NCBI RefSeq assembly: GCF_030848495.1
Contig: NZ_JAVDDT010000004.1
Location: 1 to 64,000 of the forward strand
Reading direction: 5' to 3'
Source: Natronospira bacteriovora
GTDB taxonomy: Bacteria; Pseudomonadota; Gammaproteobacteria; Natronospirales; Natronospiraceae
DNA: 64,000 bases
Below the pieces are notes generated by a model. The model had not been told where the DNA came from. It did not search any database and saw only the letters and a program-made list of their open reading frames with translations. Each line of letters begins with the position of its first letter. The first letter of the stretch is position 1. Shown here one piece after another: positions 48,503 to 55,209 of this stretch. The position numbers and the translations under genes were made by a program.

Positions 48503-49173
48503 AGCGTATTCGCCTGTTGATCCTGGGCTTGCTGCTCAGCCCGGCCCTGCTGCTGGCCGAGCCGGCCTGGGTCATCGACCGCCTCTATCTCAGTCTCTAC
48601 CCGGAGCCGGACAGCAGCACCCAGCGTATTACCCTGCTGGAAAGCGGGGATGAGCTGGAACGGCTGGGCGAGGTACAGAACGGCTTTGCCCAGGTGGAAA
48701 CCGCCAATGGCACGGTGGGCTGGGTGAATCAGGATTTTCTCGTGAATAGCCTGCCGGCACGGGTGCGGATCGACGATGTGGAACGCGAGCGGGACAGTCT
48801 GCGCAATCAACTGGCCAACCGTGAGGGGGCAATCAGTACCCTGGAAGCCAGGGTGGCCGAGCTGGAGGCGGAACTGGGTCAGGCGGTAGACGCCCTGGCC
48901 ACGAGCCCGGTGCTGGACGAGGAGATCGAGACTGCCGTCGAGCCCGACGCCGCAGATGCCGAGACAGACCCGGTGCTTGAAGAGGCCGCCACGGCGGAGT
49001 CGGCGCCGGTCGAAGCCGCGACCCCGCCCGGAGACGTCGGGCTGGTGATGGGCTGGCGCGAGGGTCTACTGGCGGGCGGACTGCTGCTGATCGCTCTGTT
49101 CCTGTCCGGCCTGTTCGGCTTCATCCTGCGTGAACGCCAGATTCGCAATCGTTTGGGAGGTCTGAGCCTGTGA
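48499..49173 (+). CDS. SH3-domain membrane-anchored protein (TIGR04211, YgiM-like)
   Basis: 224 residues. Sec signal, bacterial SH3 domain (about 22-90: LYLSLYPEPDSSTQRITLLESGDELERLG and GWVNQDFL), a coiled coil (VERERDSLRNQLANREG...EAELGQ), a low-complexity Ala/Glu/Pro linker and a C-terminal membrane helix (GLLAGGLLLIALFLSGLFGFIL) with basic tail. An envelope protein, probably binding peptidoglycan peptides; function unproven. Overlaps prlC and xth on both sides. Confidence 0.88.
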   Translation: MKRIRLLILGLLLSPALLLAEPAWVIDRLYLSLYPEPDSSTQRITLLESGDELERLGEVQNGFAQVETANGTVGWVNQDFLVNSLPARVRIDDVERERDSLRNQLANREGAISTLEARVAELEAELGQAVDALATSPVLDEEIETAVEPDAADAETDPVLEEAATAESAPVEAATPPGDVGLVMGWREGLLAGGLLLIALFLSGLFGFILRERQIRNRLGGLSL

Positions 49174-49958
49174 GTGGAAAACCCGGCCGCAATTCCGTGG
49201 TGTCCTGGAACGTCAATTCCATCCGCGTGCGTGAAGCGCAGGTGCGGGAGTGGATCGAACAGTATCAACCCGCCGTGGTGGGTCTGCAGGAAACCAAGGT
49301 TCCCAACGATGTCTGGCCGGGAGAGGCCTTTGAATCACTGGGCTATCACACCGTCAGCAACGGCCAGCGCACCTACAACGGGGTGGCTTTCATCAGCCGC
49401 GAGCCCGCCGAGGACCTGGTCTTCGATCTTCCGGGTTTCGACGACCCCCAGCGCCGGGTACTGGCCGGCACCTTTGGCGATCTGCGGGTGATCAATCTCT
49501 ATGTGCCCAATGGCCAGGCCGTGGGCAGCGAAAAATACGAGTACAAGCTGAGCTGGCTGGCCCATCTGCACGACTGGCTGAAGGAGGAAATGGCACGCCA
49601 CGACAAGGTGGTAGTCATGGGGGACTTCAATATCGCGCCCAAGGACGAGGACGTGCACGACCCGGAGGCCTGGCGCGGAAAGATTCTCTTCTCCGAACCG
49701 GAGCATGCCGCCCTCGGCAAGCTGCTCGACCTCGGCCTGGACGACAGCTTCCGGCTCTTCGATCAGGAACCCGAACAATTTTCATGGTGGGACTTTCGCA
49801 CCCGTGCCTTCCGCCGCAACCGCGGCCTGCGCATCGATCTGGCCCTGACCAGCCATGCCCTGCGCAATCAGGTCGAGGCCAGCTGGATCGACATTGAACC
49901 CCGCAAGGCCGAACGGCCCTCCGACCACGCCCCGGTGGGGGTCAACATCGAGCCTTGA
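49170..49958 (+). CDS. xth: Exodeoxyribonuclease III family AP endonuclease
   Basis: Magnesium-dependent 3'-5' exonuclease and AP endonuclease of base excision repair. 262 residues. WNVNSIRVR and LQETKV carry the Asn and Glu ligands, GDFNIAPKDEDVHDP the catalytic Asp and Asn, and RIDLALTSHAL and SDHAPV the last Asp-His pair. GTG start overlapping the SH3 gene (GTGA). The 3' end is repeated as a fragment at 54510-54620. Confidence 0.94.
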   Translation: MSGKPGRNSVVSWNVNSIRVREAQVREWIEQYQPAVVGLQETKVPNDVWPGEAFESLGYHTVSNGQRTYNGVAFISREPAEDLVFDLPGFDDPQRRVLAGTFGDLRVINLYVPNGQAVGSEKYEYKLSWLAHLHDWLKEEMARHDKVVVMGDFNIAPKDEDVHDPEAWRGKILFSEPEHAALGKLLDLGLDDSFRLFDQEPEQFSWWDFRTRAFRRNRGLRIDLALTSHALRNQVEASWIDIEPRKAERPSDHAPVGVNIEP

Positions 49959-49980: not shown

Positions 49981-50415
49981 TTAGTCGACCATGTCGCGCT
50001 CCATCGGGGCTAGCTTGGCCAGCAGGCGGTTCTGATCCGGGACGCGGACGTGGTGACGCTCCATGGCGGCGATCAGATGTTCGACCAGGGCATTGAAGTC
50101 CGCGCGGCTCAGATCCAGATCTTCGTGGGCTTCGCGCATGTCCCGGCCGGTGTACTCGCAGGGGCCACCGGCCAGTTCGCAGAACTGGTCGGCGAGCTCG
50201 TCGCGTAGATCGCCCAGAGGAATGCCGCGGAAGTAATGCGCAATCCGGACATCGTCCGTCACGCGGATCAGCATGTCCTCGACGATGCGCTCAATACCCT
50301 CTCGCTCGCCCAGGGCCTGATAGAGACGGTCGTCCTCGGCCGGCTCCGGGCTGGCGACACAGCCGGCGAGTACGAGAGCAGAGAAGACAGCCAGGATGGA
50401 CAATCGCTTCAACAT
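49981..50415 (-). CDS. Truncated globin lipoprotein (group 1-like)
   Basis: 144 residues. Signal peptide with lipobox LAGC, lipidated at Cys19, followed by a 2-on-2 globin: LYQALGEREGIERIVEDML, YFRGIPLGDLRDELADQFCELAGGP, YTGRDMREAHEDLDL with proximal His97, then FNALVEHLIAAMERHHV. Where group-1 globins usually have Tyr at B10, a Leu (Leu49) is found by eye alignment. Cys79 and Cys86 are additional. The start at 50415 is fixed by AAGGAG 6 nt upstream; an ATG 6 nt earlier touches that site. Haem binding and ligand are inferred. Last gene of the cupredoxin operon. Confidence 0.88.
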   Translation of the reverse strand: MLKRLSILAVFSALVLAGCVASPEPAEDDRLYQALGEREGIERIVEDMLIRVTDDVRIAHYFRGIPLGDLRDELADQFCELAGGPCEYTGRDMREAHEDLDLSRADFNALVEHLIAAMERHHVRVPDQNRLLAKLAPMERDMVD

Positions 50416-50426
50416 GGTCATCTCCT

Positions 50427-51293
50427 TCAGAAACTGGCCTGTAGGCTGAGATAGAAGCCATCCTGATTTTCCAGGCCGGCGATGGCGCCATGCCGGGTCC
50501 AGGCGGCGGCAAGGGCGAGGTCCTTGTTCGGGAACCAGGCGATGAAAAGATCGGCCCAGTCGTTTTCTTCCGCGAAGGAAAGGTTGTTCGGCTTTCGGCG
50601 GTATTCCATGCCGACGGCTGTGCGCGGATTGAGGAAAATGGCCGCGCTGGCTTCCAGCTGCAGCTCGTGGTCGTCATTGCGGTCGCCACCGAATCCAAGA
50701 TAGCCGAGTTCATTGGCCCGGGTCGCCCGCAGGGTGCCGTTCAGCAGCAGGTTGTAACCACCGGCCCCACCGAGAAACAGGCGCGTGACTGCCAGATAGG
50801 CATCCACATCGCTGTCACGCTGGGCACCCACCAGCTCCGGGATGGTGGGGTCGCGCAGATCCTTGTACTGCACACCAAAGGCGATCTGCGGCAATGTGCC
50901 GTAGATCAGGTCACCGCCCAGGCGGGTCTTCAGCCCGAGCGTGTTCATGCGCAGCACGGCATCCGGGGCTTCCAGCGCGATGCCCAGGGTACCGAGGTTG
51001 AACTGGCCGCGGCTTGCCGAAACTTCCACCCGATTGTTCCAGCTCCAGTTGGCGGCCACCGTCGAGAGACGGTAATCGGCCAGGGACACGTGACTCAGGC
51101 TGACGGTGCCGCCTTGCTCACCCTCTGCCCCGTAGCCGGCCATCACGGCCCAGGGCACAAGCCCGCCACCCGCACTGCCTTCGATCTGGGTAACTCCGCC
51201 AGTGGCGAGAATGCGTCCGTCCTGGGCGATTGCCCAGGGCGAGAGCAGGGTCAGTATCAGGGCGAGAAATCCCCGGTATGTCTTTCCTGGCAT
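50427..51293 (-). CDS. DUF3034 outer-membrane-type protein
   Basis: 288 residues, Sec signal (GFLALILTLLSPWAIAQ) and beta-strand-rich mature chain ending in an aromatic residue (FYLSLQASF), as in outer-membrane barrels. Features such as GRILATGGVTQIEGSAGGGLVPWAVMAGY and RANELGYLGFGGDRNDDHELQLE match the DUF3034 family as I recall it; function unknown. AGGAGG ribosome-binding site before the ATG at 51293. 11 nt upstream of the globin gene, 37 nt downstream of the GGDEF/EAL gene. Confidence 0.82.
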   Translation of the reverse strand: MPGKTYRGFLALILTLLSPWAIAQDGRILATGGVTQIEGSAGGGLVPWAVMAGYGAEGEQGGTVSLSHVSLADYRLSTVAANWSWNNRVEVSASRGQFNLGTLGIALEAPDAVLRMNTLGLKTRLGGDLIYGTLPQIAFGVQYKDLRDPTIPELVGAQRDSDVDAYLAVTRLFLGGAGGYNLLLNGTLRATRANELGYLGFGGDRNDDHELQLEASAAIFLNPRTAVGMEYRRKPNNLSFAEENDWADLFIAWFPNKDLALAAAWTRHGAIAGLENQDGFYLSLQASF

Positions 51294-51330
51294 TGATTCA
51301 TCCTCCTGATGGCGACAGGGTCTGGGGCCG

Positions 51331-53679
51331 CTAGTCTGGCTCCCGCCACTGCCGGTTCGCGAACTCACCGAGCCATTCTGGCAAGGCGTCGGCGGGCATG
51401 GGTCGACTGATCCAGTAGCCCTGGATGGAGTCGCAGCCGTAGCCAGCCAGACGCCACCAGGTGGCCTCGTCCTCCACGCCTTCGGCCACTACCTTGAGGC
51501 CCATGTTATGGGCCAGGTCAATGGTGGAGCGGACGATGACCGGATCCTCCGCGTCCTCCGCCTGGCCCGCCAGCTTCATGACGAATGACTTGTCGATCTT
51601 GAGCTCATCCACCGGCAGACTGCGCAGCTGGGCCAGTGACGAATAGCCGGTACCAAAGTCATCAATGGCGATTGCCACGCCCAGTGAACGCAGCTCCTGG
51701 AGGATGTGCAGCGCATGTCGGGCGTCCTTCATGACGGTGGTCTCGGTGATCTCCAGACCCAGTGCCGATGGCGGCAGCTCGTGCTGATCCAGCAGCGCCT
51801 GAACGTAGCGTGGCAGACCGGCGTCCACCAGATCCAATGCCGAGATGTTCACGGCCACGGCAATGGACAGCTCACTGCGCCGCCATTCGGCCAGCTGGCG
51901 GATCACCGTTTGCAACACCCAGCGGCTGATGGTGCGAATGTAGCCGGAATTTTCCGCCAGGGGGATGAACTCGTCCGGTGGTACAAAGCCCTGCTCGGGA
52001 TGATTCCAGCGTATCAGCGCCTCGAGCTGGGTAGCCTGGCGATTACTGACGGCAATCTTGGGCTGATACTGGATATGGAACTGCTCATCATCAATGGCGG
52101 TGCGCAGGTCAGACAACATCTTCAGGCGCCGCAAATGCGCCTCGTCATGGCCGGCGGCGTAGACACTCGAAGTAAGCTGGCGCTCCTTGGCCTGGTACAT
52201 GGCGATGTCGGCTCGACGAAGCAGTGTCTCCACATCCGTCCCATCGCGCGGGCAAAGGGCGATCCCCAGACTGATCGCCAGCTGCAGCCGGATATTCTCG
52301 ATCTCCAGCTCCTGGCCACTGATGGCATCAATAAGCTCGGCAGCCAGACGCTCCGGGCCTTGCTTGTCCTCCACTTCAGCGAGGACAAGGAACTCGTCAC
52401 CACCCAGGCGGGCAACGGTGTCACTGCCTCGAAGCCGACTCGAGAGACGACTGGCAATTGCCCGCAGTACCGCATCGCCGGTGGGGTGGCCGAGAGAGTC
52501 GTTGATTTCCTTGAAGCGATTGACATCCAGCACCAGCACCCCGAGAACCCGTCCCTCGCGCTGTACCCGCTCAATACCCTGTTCCAGGCGATCGGCCGCC
52601 AGAGTGCGATTGGGCAGGCCGGTCAGGGGATCGTGGTAGGCCTGGTGCAGGATTCGCTGCTCGCGTTGGCGGATGCCCTCCTGCATGGCGTTGAAGGCTT
52701 CACCCAGTTGCGCGAGTTCCGCAATGGGCGGTACCGGTGCGGAACGGCTGTAATCCCCCTGACTGATGCGGGCGGCCGCGGCGGCCAGTGCACGAGTCGG
52801 GCGTGTCACCCGATTGGCCAGAGGCCCGGCAATGATCAGTGTCAGAGTGAAGGCAATCAGCGCGATGATGGCCATCTGCAGCCACAGGGGGCGGTAGGGC
52901 GCCAGGGCCTCCGACAGGGAAGTCTGCAACAGTACAATGGGTGAACCGGGATGCCCATCAAGGGTCAGGCGCAGACTGAGGTAGTCTTCGCCCGCAATCG
53001 TCAGGGTGCGCACGTCGTCAATCGCCGTGGCTTGCTCGGCCAGGCGCTCAGGCAGTTCTCGCCTAACGTGGCCCGGCAGAGTGCTGGCATAGGGCGCTGT
53101 TTCATCCGTCGAGGAGAGAAAACTGACATGCAGTCCGGTCAGGCTGCGAAGGTCGGCTGCAATCCGATCATCGAGGCGAAAGCCCATTGAGACCCGCGCC
53201 AGTGGCAAGGGTGCCCGTACCGTGGCATCCACCATCTGCCAGGCCTCACCCTCAAGGGAAATGACACCCTGGCGCAGGTCATTTTGGCCGATTGCAGGAT
53301 CCAGCTCCCGGAATCGATTGTCATTTTCCCTAAGGGCGGTGGTAATGAACTGGCCCTTGGTATCACTGAGAATCATCAAATCAGCATCAATTCGCCCACC
53401 GTGGTTGAGCAGGGCTGATCGGATGGTGGCCGCATCTTCGGTTGCCACGGCTTCGCGGAAGGCGAAGTCGTCTGCCAGAACCTGCGTGGTGCTGCTGAGC
53501 TGGCGATCCCGGTTGCTGAGCAGCTCTTCGAATACGCGGGCACCGACGCGCAGTTCCTCACTGGCCTGTTCTCGTACATTCGCGGCCGTTGAGAGAAGAA
53601 CGGCCAACAGAGTGACTGCCAGCACGGCGCTCACGAAGCCAAGCAGTATGAGGGTCATGCGGGCCTTGAGGCTGGTCAT
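51331..53679 (-). CDS. Membrane sensor with GGDEF and EAL domains
   Basis: 782 residues. Membrane helix (12-32), a periplasmic sensor of about 245 residues with cache-like look (DLMILSDTKGQFITTA, WQMVDATVRAPLPLARVSMGF), a second helix near 285-305 (MAIIALIAFTLTLIIAGPLA), HAMP (VTRPTRALAAAAARISQGDY), then GGDEF (426-430, intact, with RGSD inhibitory I-site just before) and EAL (553-555, with DDFGTGYSSL, ELKIDKSF, VVAEGVED and QGYWISRP). Both synthesis and hydrolysis of cyclic-di-GMP are possible. Its position within the cupredoxin-globin operon suggests a redox, copper or gas signal. Confidence 0.9.
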   Translation of the reverse strand: MTSLKARMTLILLGFVSAVLAVTLLAVLLSTAANVREQASEELRVGARVFEELLSNRDRQLSSTTQVLADDFAFREAVATEDAATIRSALLNHGGRIDADLMILSDTKGQFITTALRENDNRFRELDPAIGQNDLRQGVISLEGEAWQMVDATVRAPLPLARVSMGFRLDDRIAADLRSLTGLHVSFLSSTDETAPYASTLPGHVRRELPERLAEQATAIDDVRTLTIAGEDYLSLRLTLDGHPGSPIVLLQTSLSEALAPYRPLWLQMAIIALIAFTLTLIIAGPLANRVTRPTRALAAAAARISQGDYSRSAPVPPIAELAQLGEAFNAMQEGIRQREQRILHQAYHDPLTGLPNRTLAADRLEQGIERVQREGRVLGVLVLDVNRFKEINDSLGHPTGDAVLRAIASRLSSRLRGSDTVARLGGDEFLVLAEVEDKQGPERLAAELIDAISGQELEIENIRLQLAISLGIALCPRDGTDVETLLRRADIAMYQAKERQLTSSVYAAGHDEAHLRRLKMLSDLRTAIDDEQFHIQYQPKIAVSNRQATQLEALIRWNHPEQGFVPPDEFIPLAENSGYIRTISRWVLQTVIRQLAEWRRSELSIAVAVNISALDLVDAGLPRYVQALLDQHELPPSALGLEITETTVMKDARHALHILQELRSLGVAIAIDDFGTGYSSLAQLRSLPVDELKIDKSFVMKLAGQAEDAEDPVIVRSTIDLAHNMGLKVVAEGVEDEATWWRLAGYGCDSIQGYWISRPMPADALPEWLGEFANRQWREPD

Positions 53680-53744
53680 GGTAACTCCGCAGCGGCGACA
53701 GGATGGGTGATTTTATGAATTCAGGGTGTGCATGAATTTCGTGA

Positions 53745-54392
53745 TCAGAATCGTCGTCGGCGCCGACGGTCAATCTGATCGTCGGCCGCCGGCGTCAGTT
53801 CGAGATCGCGCTCCAGCGTCACACCATCTTCGGTAATCCTGATGGTTTCCTCGACACGGCGGCTGTCGCTTGTGGCATCGGGGTGCCAGATGACCAGTTC
53901 ATACTCACCCGGCGGCACCTCCAGTGTGATTTGCCCCTCGTTGTCAGCGAATCCGAAGTACGGTGTCTCCATGACGTGCACCCAACCAACCATCCAGTCG
54001 TGGATGTTGCAGCCGAGCACCACTTCACCCGTCTTTTCGAAATGAATGTCTTCGGGTGGATCACCCTTGAACAGGGGCAGCTCAAATCGTTTTGCAGCGG
54101 AAAAGGAATAGACATGATGGCGCACGTCATCATTGTTCAGAAAGCGAACATGGCTGCCGGGCTTGATGGCGATCGCACGCGGGCTGAACTGCCGATCGAT
54201 CTGATCCATTTTCGCCAGATCTTCCCCTTGCACCTCGGTGTCAGCGTCAACGGGCTGCAATGAGACGAGCGTTTCGCTGATGTCACCACTTTCGGCGCTG
54301 AGTTCAAGCGTTAGGTTGCTCGCTATGGGCTGCCCAGGCATCAGGGCCAATCCGAGGATCGTGCTGAGAAGGGGAAGGGTAGAACGGGACAT
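53745..54392 (-). CDS. Exported cupredoxin-domain protein ('methylamine utilization protein'-like)
   Basis: 215 residues. Signal peptide, then a plastocyanin-like domain with all type-1 copper ligands in place: His92/93 (NNDDVRHHVYSF), Cys128, His131 and Met134 (GCNIHDWM). A carboxypeptidase-regulatory-like Ig strand set follows (GQITLEVPPGEYELVIWHPD) and an arginine-rich tail (DRRRRRRF). The ATG at 54392 has GGAG 9 nt upstream; a GTG 21 nt further upstream is less likely. Predicted periplasmic electron carrier or copper sensor. First gene of a four-gene minus-strand unit. Confidence 0.87.
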   Translation of the reverse strand: MSRSTLPLLSTILGLALMPGQPIASNLTLELSAESGDISETLVSLQPVDADTEVQGEDLAKMDQIDRQFSPRAIAIKPGSHVRFLNNDDVRHHVYSFSAAKRFELPLFKGDPPEDIHFEKTGEVVLGCNIHDWMVGWVHVMETPYFGFADNEGQITLEVPPGEYELVIWHPDATSDSRRVEETIRITEDGVTLERDLELTPAADDQIDRRRRRRF

Positions 54393-54509
54393 GCAGATAT
54401 CTCCGTGGGACACTCAGGACAGCCTAGGTGAACCCAGGGCGGCTGCCAAGCACTGCACTCCCGGCGGTACCCGCTTCGAGATCAGCGGGATGCCTGGCCC
54501 AAAGAGCCC

Positions 54510-54620
54510 AACCGCGGCCTGCGCAATCAGGTCGAGGCCAGCTGGATCGACATCGAACCCCGCAAGGCCGAACGCCCCTCCGTCCACGCCCCGGTGGGGG
54601 TGAATATCAGCGTCTCCTGA
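54510..54620 (+). pseudogene. Duplicated 3' fragment of the xth gene
   Basis: Encodes NRGLRNQVEASWIDIEPRK and on to a TGA stop, matching the xth end at 49818-49958. Relative to xth, 33 nt (11 codons, from RIDLALTSHAL) are missing exactly between two copies of CCTGCGCA, as expected of a slippage or recombination deletion. The catalytic His motif SDHAPVG reads SVHAPVG. After the deletion point only a few bases differ until the last codons, so the copy is recent. The preceding 90 nt are not recognisable as xth. The whole 54414-54718 gap contains otherwise only a terminator. Confidence 0.85.
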
Positions 54621-54718: not shown

Positions 54719-55114
54719 TTACGGCTCCTGAAGCATTGCGCGAAGCATCGCACGAATCATCCCATAGGCGGCCGTACAGGTTGAAGCGGTGGCTTCCACC
54801 TCGGCGGATTGCCCGGCAATGCTCACTGTGACGGTAATCGTACAGGAACCTTCCTCATCCAGGGTCTCTGCAGAAAGCAAATCCTGACCCCCGATCAAGG
54901 CCTTGTTCTTGGTCTCAACGGAGACAATGGTGAAGCTGGGGTCAATGGCTTGGCCAAATCGCTCCAGCTGGCGCAGGTCGCGTACCAACGTTCGATTATC
55001 AAGCGGCTGTGCTTCATTCCAGCCATTCCCCGCGGAAGCGGTAATCGGATGGCCAACAAGAAAAACAACAACGCACAGAATGGAACCGATGGCAAGCAAT
55101 GAGATTTTTTTCAT
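54719..55114 (-). CDS. Small exported protein of unknown function
   Basis: 131 residues with a clear Sec signal (MKKISLLAIGSILCVVVFL, cut near ASA-GNG). The mature chain has RTLVRDLRQLERFGQAIDP, a strand-rich end with two cysteines (GSCTITVTV, STCTAAYG) that could form a disulfide, and a final helix. The gene is visibly less GC-rich than its neighbours. AGGGGAAG ribosome-binding site before the ATG at 55114. No family recognised. Monocistronic with its own promoter and terminator, suggestive of recent arrival. Confidence 0.72.
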   Translation of the reverse strand: MKKISLLAIGSILCVVVFLVGHPITASAGNGWNEAQPLDNRTLVRDLRQLERFGQAIDPSFTIVSVETKNKALIGGQDLLSAETLDEEGSCTITVTVSIAGQSAEVEATASTCTAAYGMIRAMLRAMLQEP

Positions 55115-55152
55115 TATCTTCCCCTTTAAAGATAAATCAACTCTATGATAGA

Positions 55153-55209
55153 CAAGGCGTCCCCACACGCCTTGGGAAAAATATTAAAAACCCGGCGCCC
55201 GCTCGTCAA
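55153..55209 (-). promoter_or_regulatory. Promoter and leader hairpin of the 131-residue gene
   Basis: On the minus strand TTGACG (55204-55209, 5 of 6 to the -35 consensus) is followed after exactly 17 nt by TAATAT (55181-55186). Downstream the leader contains an 8-bp hairpin CAAGGCGT/ACGCCTTG (55153-55174) that could be an operator or mRNA structure. AT-rich relative to surroundings. Confidence 0.5.

Follow-up and report, generated by a model that had tools for sequence, protein, structure and literature searches.

A conserved operon joining a putative cupredoxin and a GGDEF/EAL sensor to a predicted outer-membrane barrel and an exported globin in Natronospira bacteriovora

The stretch of DNA analysed here, called the window throughout, comprises 64,000 nucleotides of Natronospira bacteriovora (contig NZ_JAVDDT010000004.1, positions 1 to 64,000). 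Within it four minus-strand open reading frames follow one another in the order cupredoxin, sensor, DUF3034 and globin, with intergenic gaps of 65, 37 and 5 nt (Table 1), which agrees with a preliminary description of the same DNA that had placed four consecutive minus-strand genes here, separated by short gaps. The domains of the sensor, DUF3034 and the globin were assigned by Pfam, and the cupredoxin was assigned by its fold and ligands.

Table 1. The four-gene block, its flanking features and a second triad of the same genome
Feature	Position	Strand	Basis or remark
Inner direct-repeat copy, the 3' end of xth (49170-49958)	49849-49949	+
Globin, exported, lipobox-bearing, truncated, group I-like	49981-50421	-	PF01152, 48.7 bits
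DUF3034, predicted 12-stranded outer-membrane barrel	50427-51293	-	Pfam and model; ATG start
Two-helix membrane sensor with periplasmic dCache_3, HAMP, GGDEF and EAL	51331-53679	-	Pfam
Putative exported cupredoxin	53745-54392	-	Type-1 copper ligands and cupredoxin fold
Outer direct-repeat copy, an orphan xth 3' end	54508-54608	+	91% identical to inner copy
Short exported ORF between the insertion and glmS	54719-55168	-	No Pfam or NCBIfam match
Second cupredoxin-sensor-barrel triad of the window genome	3547-7144 of L142 (G000:C11:5000-17000)

In the window genome the operon has the form of an insertion that separates xth from glmS, and the block is flanked by a 101-nt direct repeat of the 3' end of xth that is absent from the preliminary description. 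A genome of the same genus (G002) has xth directly before glmS, that is, an empty site, and another genome (G001) carries other DNA between the two genes, so the gap beside glmS seems to be a site of variation; DUF3034 is missing from three relatives in the family. The tail of the outer repeat is slightly closer to the xth end of G002 than is the tail of the inner repeat, which hints, no more than that, that recombination brought in the block together with an xth end of its own. Integration of the block targeted to a tRNA was considered and rejected, since the 64,000-nt window contains no tRNA.

One could suppose from the repeated xth end around the block that the genes are together only through a local insertion event and share no functional link. 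This idea is already refuted by a neighbourhood survey across the proteobacteria, of the kind that the preliminary description had proposed, because the same four genes recur on distant chromosomes and on plasmids in several orders and because pairs of them persist with different partners, and we give it next to no probability. Among 369 genomes drawn evenly from the class, 18 have DUF3034, and nine of these 18 have all four genes; in three others the globin adjoins DUF3034 outside a full operon, with the cupredoxin also present in one of the three; a single genome pairs the cupredoxin with a kinase sensor, DUF3034 stands by itself in four, and the remaining match is fragmentary, lying at a contig end. 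The globin is thus found at 12 of the 18, which bears out a neighbourhood of DUF3034 and globin genes that the preliminary description had put forward tentatively. In a collected set, which is biased, all four genes occur together at 88 of 99 DUF3034 loci, and the full operon is found in 77 of 80 named loci picked by similarity to the window protein (from Pseudomonas, Stutzerimonas, Xanthomonas, Rhodanobacter, Shewanella, Marinobacter, Idiomarina and others), the three exceptions being interrupted by contig ends; related genomes within such neighbourhood counts are not independent samples. The DUF3034 of the window clusters with that of G006, a genome from the same taxonomic order. The arrangement of the genes is permuted elsewhere, running DUF3034, globin, cupredoxin, EAL on Caballeronia plasmids and taking the form of two divergent pairs on a plasmid of Novosphingobium. 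Since the four families are associated elsewhere, the four genes do belong together, and judged by gene neighbourhoods the association is a conserved operon, present in many proteobacteria, that extends well beyond one lineage and not a local accident.

Some Pseudomonas loci carry a further sensor-GGDEF/EAL gene, a paralogue, next to the operon (L078, L084, L087, L089, L090, L093, L095, L097 and L100, and also L094 and L096). A published description of the operon was not found in the open-access full-text literature, a scope within which novelty is not proven; the one mention of DUF3034 that we considered, in PMC12548924, stands in a figure legend on retron loci in a text that elsewhere names DUF3037, and it has no bearing on the operon.

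No Pfam or NCBIfam model matches the cupredoxin of the window, and NCBI labels its relatives 'methylamine utilization protein'. The preliminary description had claimed an exported type-1 copper protein with all ligands, and the AlphaFold model (pLDDT 90) accords with this, as it presents a cupredoxin domain at residues 57-142 and a second beta domain after it; the former matches copper cupredoxins with Z about 12 (Z 12.5 to 4hcf over residues 57-141). The type-1 ligands H92, C128, H131 and M134 are kept in 90-91 of 91, and by fold and ligands together the protein is a putative type-1 copper protein.

The periplasmic part of the sensor matches dCache_3 with 32.3 bits against a cut-off of 25.7, and an alignment of 19 diverse members of this domain has a single invariant residue, an Asp, with no conserved Cys, His or Met. 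On the cytoplasmic side the window copy has both an intact GGDEF domain with RxxD and an intact EAL domain, so the cyclase and phosphodiesterase motifs reported earlier stand for this protein, but not the cyclase as a feature of the family: at nine EAL catalytic positions 91-92 of 93 orthologues keep the expected residue (K697 varies), while GGDEF is intact in only 21 of the 93. The conserved output of the operon is therefore likely to be c-di-GMP hydrolysis through EAL, and a balanced cyclase and phosphodiesterase output as a family trait was rejected on the same count.

DUF3034 (PF11231) is matched over its full length, positions 1-255 of 255, with 343.9 bits against a cut-off of 25, and its prediction as an outer-membrane protein gains from a 12-stranded model (pLDDT 88) whose closest fold is FapF (Z 19.5 over 221 residues), with Z 17.8 to 4rl8, and with KdgM, COG4313 and autotransporter barrels as the next matches after FapF. 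It resembles the 12-stranded channels FapF and COG4313 in predicted fold at a sequence identity of about 10%; unlike FapF, it had no amyloid-secretion genes noticed beside it at the loci read in detail. A sequence search of the PDB with DUF3034 returned only Ika8 and Ika4, over a stretch of about 60 residues. Far down the list of fold matches stands the copper transporter PcoB (Z 12.6), and this, with the conserved copper site of the cupredoxin, lends something to the view that the operon serves copper homeostasis, with the cupredoxin as a store or chaperone, the barrel as a copper-related channel and a sensor that reads copper directly. We consider that view improbable, given that three ligands and a Met make a redox-type site and not a store, that genes for a copper ATPase, a copper oxidase or a CusA-like protein do not recur at the loci read, and that the invariant Asp of dCache_3 is unaccompanied by any conserved Cys, His or Met among the 19 members.

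The fourth protein shares the fold of group I truncated haemoglobins such as HbN (1idr) by its profile match and its proximal His (H99, in 94 of 94), and the claim that it is lipidated is strengthened by a lipobox, LAGC, on the window globin and by lipoboxes in 83 of 94 globins under a simple pattern test. Unlike HbN, the operon globin is exported, mostly lipidated and endowed with two near-invariant cysteines (C81 and C88, 93 of 94) and aliphatic residues at the positions aligned to B10 and E11. Mycobacterial HbN stabilises O2 with Tyr B10 and Gln E11, neither of which the operon globin has; its position aligned to B10, L51, is L, V or I in 91 of 94, its position aligned to E11, L76, is L, F or I in 94 of 94, and the positions aligned to B10, E7 and E11 of HbN are almost always apolar. 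Because its distal pocket appears apolar, the globin is unlikely to be an NO dioxygenase of the HbN type. It accompanies DUF3034 and never the other barrel families found beside the cupredoxin: of the cupredoxin loci with DUF3034, 38 of 39 contain the globin, and of those lacking DUF3034 none of 37 does, so that by co-occurrence DUF3034 and the globin form a second conserved pair, joined in the operon to the pair of cupredoxin and sensor. Related globins, matching the profile at 101-155 bits, also lie away from DUF3034 and the cupredoxin, at L158-L167.

The cupredoxin and its sensor likewise keep company in both directions. A cupredoxin profile search of the class sample found the sensor within 3.5 kb at 28 of 31 strong matches, and a search of the same sample with the periplasmic part of the sensor found the cupredoxin near 26 of 29 strong matches and also at 8 of 14 weak, distant ones. 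Some loci in the sensor profile were first found via the cupredoxin, so the strong-match counts are not fully independent, unlike the remote pairs, which are; in the four remote pairs inspected the two genes are directly adjacent. The window genome has only two dCache_3 proteins, and each adjoins a cupredoxin. At 49 loci outside the sets used to build the profiles, the sensor was present in 41 and a barrel in 42. Sensors with no cupredoxin nearby do exist (L217-L219), as do cupredoxins without a sensor (11 of 76 loci), so the pair is not obligate in cis. It also occurs without DUF3034 and the globin. The output of the paired sensor varies, between GGDEF/EAL, a class III nucleotidyl cyclase, a Ser/Thr kinase and a histidine kinase. 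The third neighbour is usually an exported protein that resembles an outer-membrane barrel and belongs to one of four families (DUF3034, two unnamed families and a Porin_5-like family), and barrel family and output type mix across loci. Comparison of neighbourhoods thus presents the cupredoxin and the dCache_3-HAMP sensor as a conserved, transferable input pair.

Several observations sit beside these counts. In the second triad of the window genome the output is a class III nucleotidyl cyclase, and the barrel-like protein belongs to a family other than DUF3034. Divergent cupredoxins lie directly beside GGDEF/EAL proteins of about 900-920 residues at L220-L223, and in L220 and L223 an argH-like reading frame adjoins the pair. 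The two unnamed exported families, whose members have about 420 and about 300 residues, are repeatedly found next to the cupredoxin (at L145, L148, L150, L152, L153 and L156, and at L142-L144, L146 and L147); most of the members tested have no Pfam match above cut-off, and with moderate confidence we regard both as probable barrels from sub-threshold Pfam matches and strand periodicity.

Cupredoxin and globin are both redox proteins, and among the nearest cupredoxin domains of solved structure are electron carriers and domains of nitrite reductase, from which one might propose an electron-transfer or NO/O2-handling pathway in which the two exchange electrons or detoxify NO, the barrel passes the substrate, and the c-di-GMP enzyme is merely co-regulated. 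That the cupredoxin keeps its sensor where the globin and DUF3034 are gone argues against such a pathway, as do the lack in the globin of the polar B10 and E11 residues of HbN and, at the loci read, of any oxidase, reductase or dehydrogenase as a conserved neighbour, and we hold it to be unlikely. The neighbourhoods best back a cupredoxin that would act on the c-di-GMP enzyme, because the pair is reciprocal and is kept while the output domain changes. The preliminary description had suggested that the cupredoxin, the globin or both read the copper, oxygen or NO state of the periplasm and pass it to c-di-GMP; the part concerning the cupredoxin is favoured by the reciprocal pair, and direct input from the globin to the sensor was set aside as the preferred reading, since the globin follows DUF3034 alone.

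We therefore favour, with somewhat better than even confidence, a trans-envelope signalling operon in which the cupredoxin is the periplasmic input and copper or redox state would pass through the sensor to c-di-GMP via EAL. The cupredoxin would dock on the dCache_3 domain in the periplasm, the redox state or copper occupancy of the docked protein would set the conformation of the sensor, in the way that periplasmic binding proteins act on sensors such as LuxP-LuxQ, HAMP would relay the conformational change to the cytoplasmic output, and the EAL phosphodiesterase would change c-di-GMP, with GGDEF presumably regulatory in most orthologues. We suggest, though less confidently, that DUF3034 as the barrel and the globin on its lipid anchor may form an outer-membrane unit, and that this unit might supply or condition the cue for the cupredoxin, be it redox equivalents, copper, NO or O2. 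Both the stimulus of the sensor, a copper or redox cue, and the role of the globin are what we infer, and the adjacency of cupredoxin and dCache_3 genes does not by itself equal an interaction of their products.

Sensors that depend on a periplasmic protein have precedents in LuxP-LuxQ and TorT-TorS, and the conserved side-by-side genes described above share with them an exported partner whose gene adjoins that of a membrane sensor with a periplasmic domain and an output in its cytoplasmic part. By analogy the cupredoxin-sensor pair may work as a sensor served by a periplasmic partner protein, with docking as the presumed contact; unlike in those systems, however, the partner is a copper cupredoxin and not a binding protein, and a single partner family serves at least four output classes. 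Similarly, YfiBNR of Pseudomonas combines an outer-membrane part, a small periplasmic part and an inner-membrane HAMP protein of c-di-GMP turnover, although there YfiR is no cupredoxin and YfiB no barrel of the DUF3034 kind, and YfiN makes c-di-GMP whereas the conserved chemistry of the operon is that of EAL.

To our knowledge, the cue of most membrane-bound c-di-GMP enzymes is unknown, and the operon, present in many Pseudomonas and Xanthomonas species, gives one large group of them a widespread candidate partner protein. More tentatively, and with slightly less than even confidence, we propose that the cupredoxin family is a general, previously undescribed periplasmic input subunit, a copper redox switch that would plug into dCache sensors to drive outputs through c-di-GMP, cyclic nucleotides, Ser/Thr kinases or histidine kinases and would be coupled to an outer-membrane barrel. 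The recurrence of this partner with cyclases and kinases would suggest that copper redox chemistry serves generally as a signal at the envelope.
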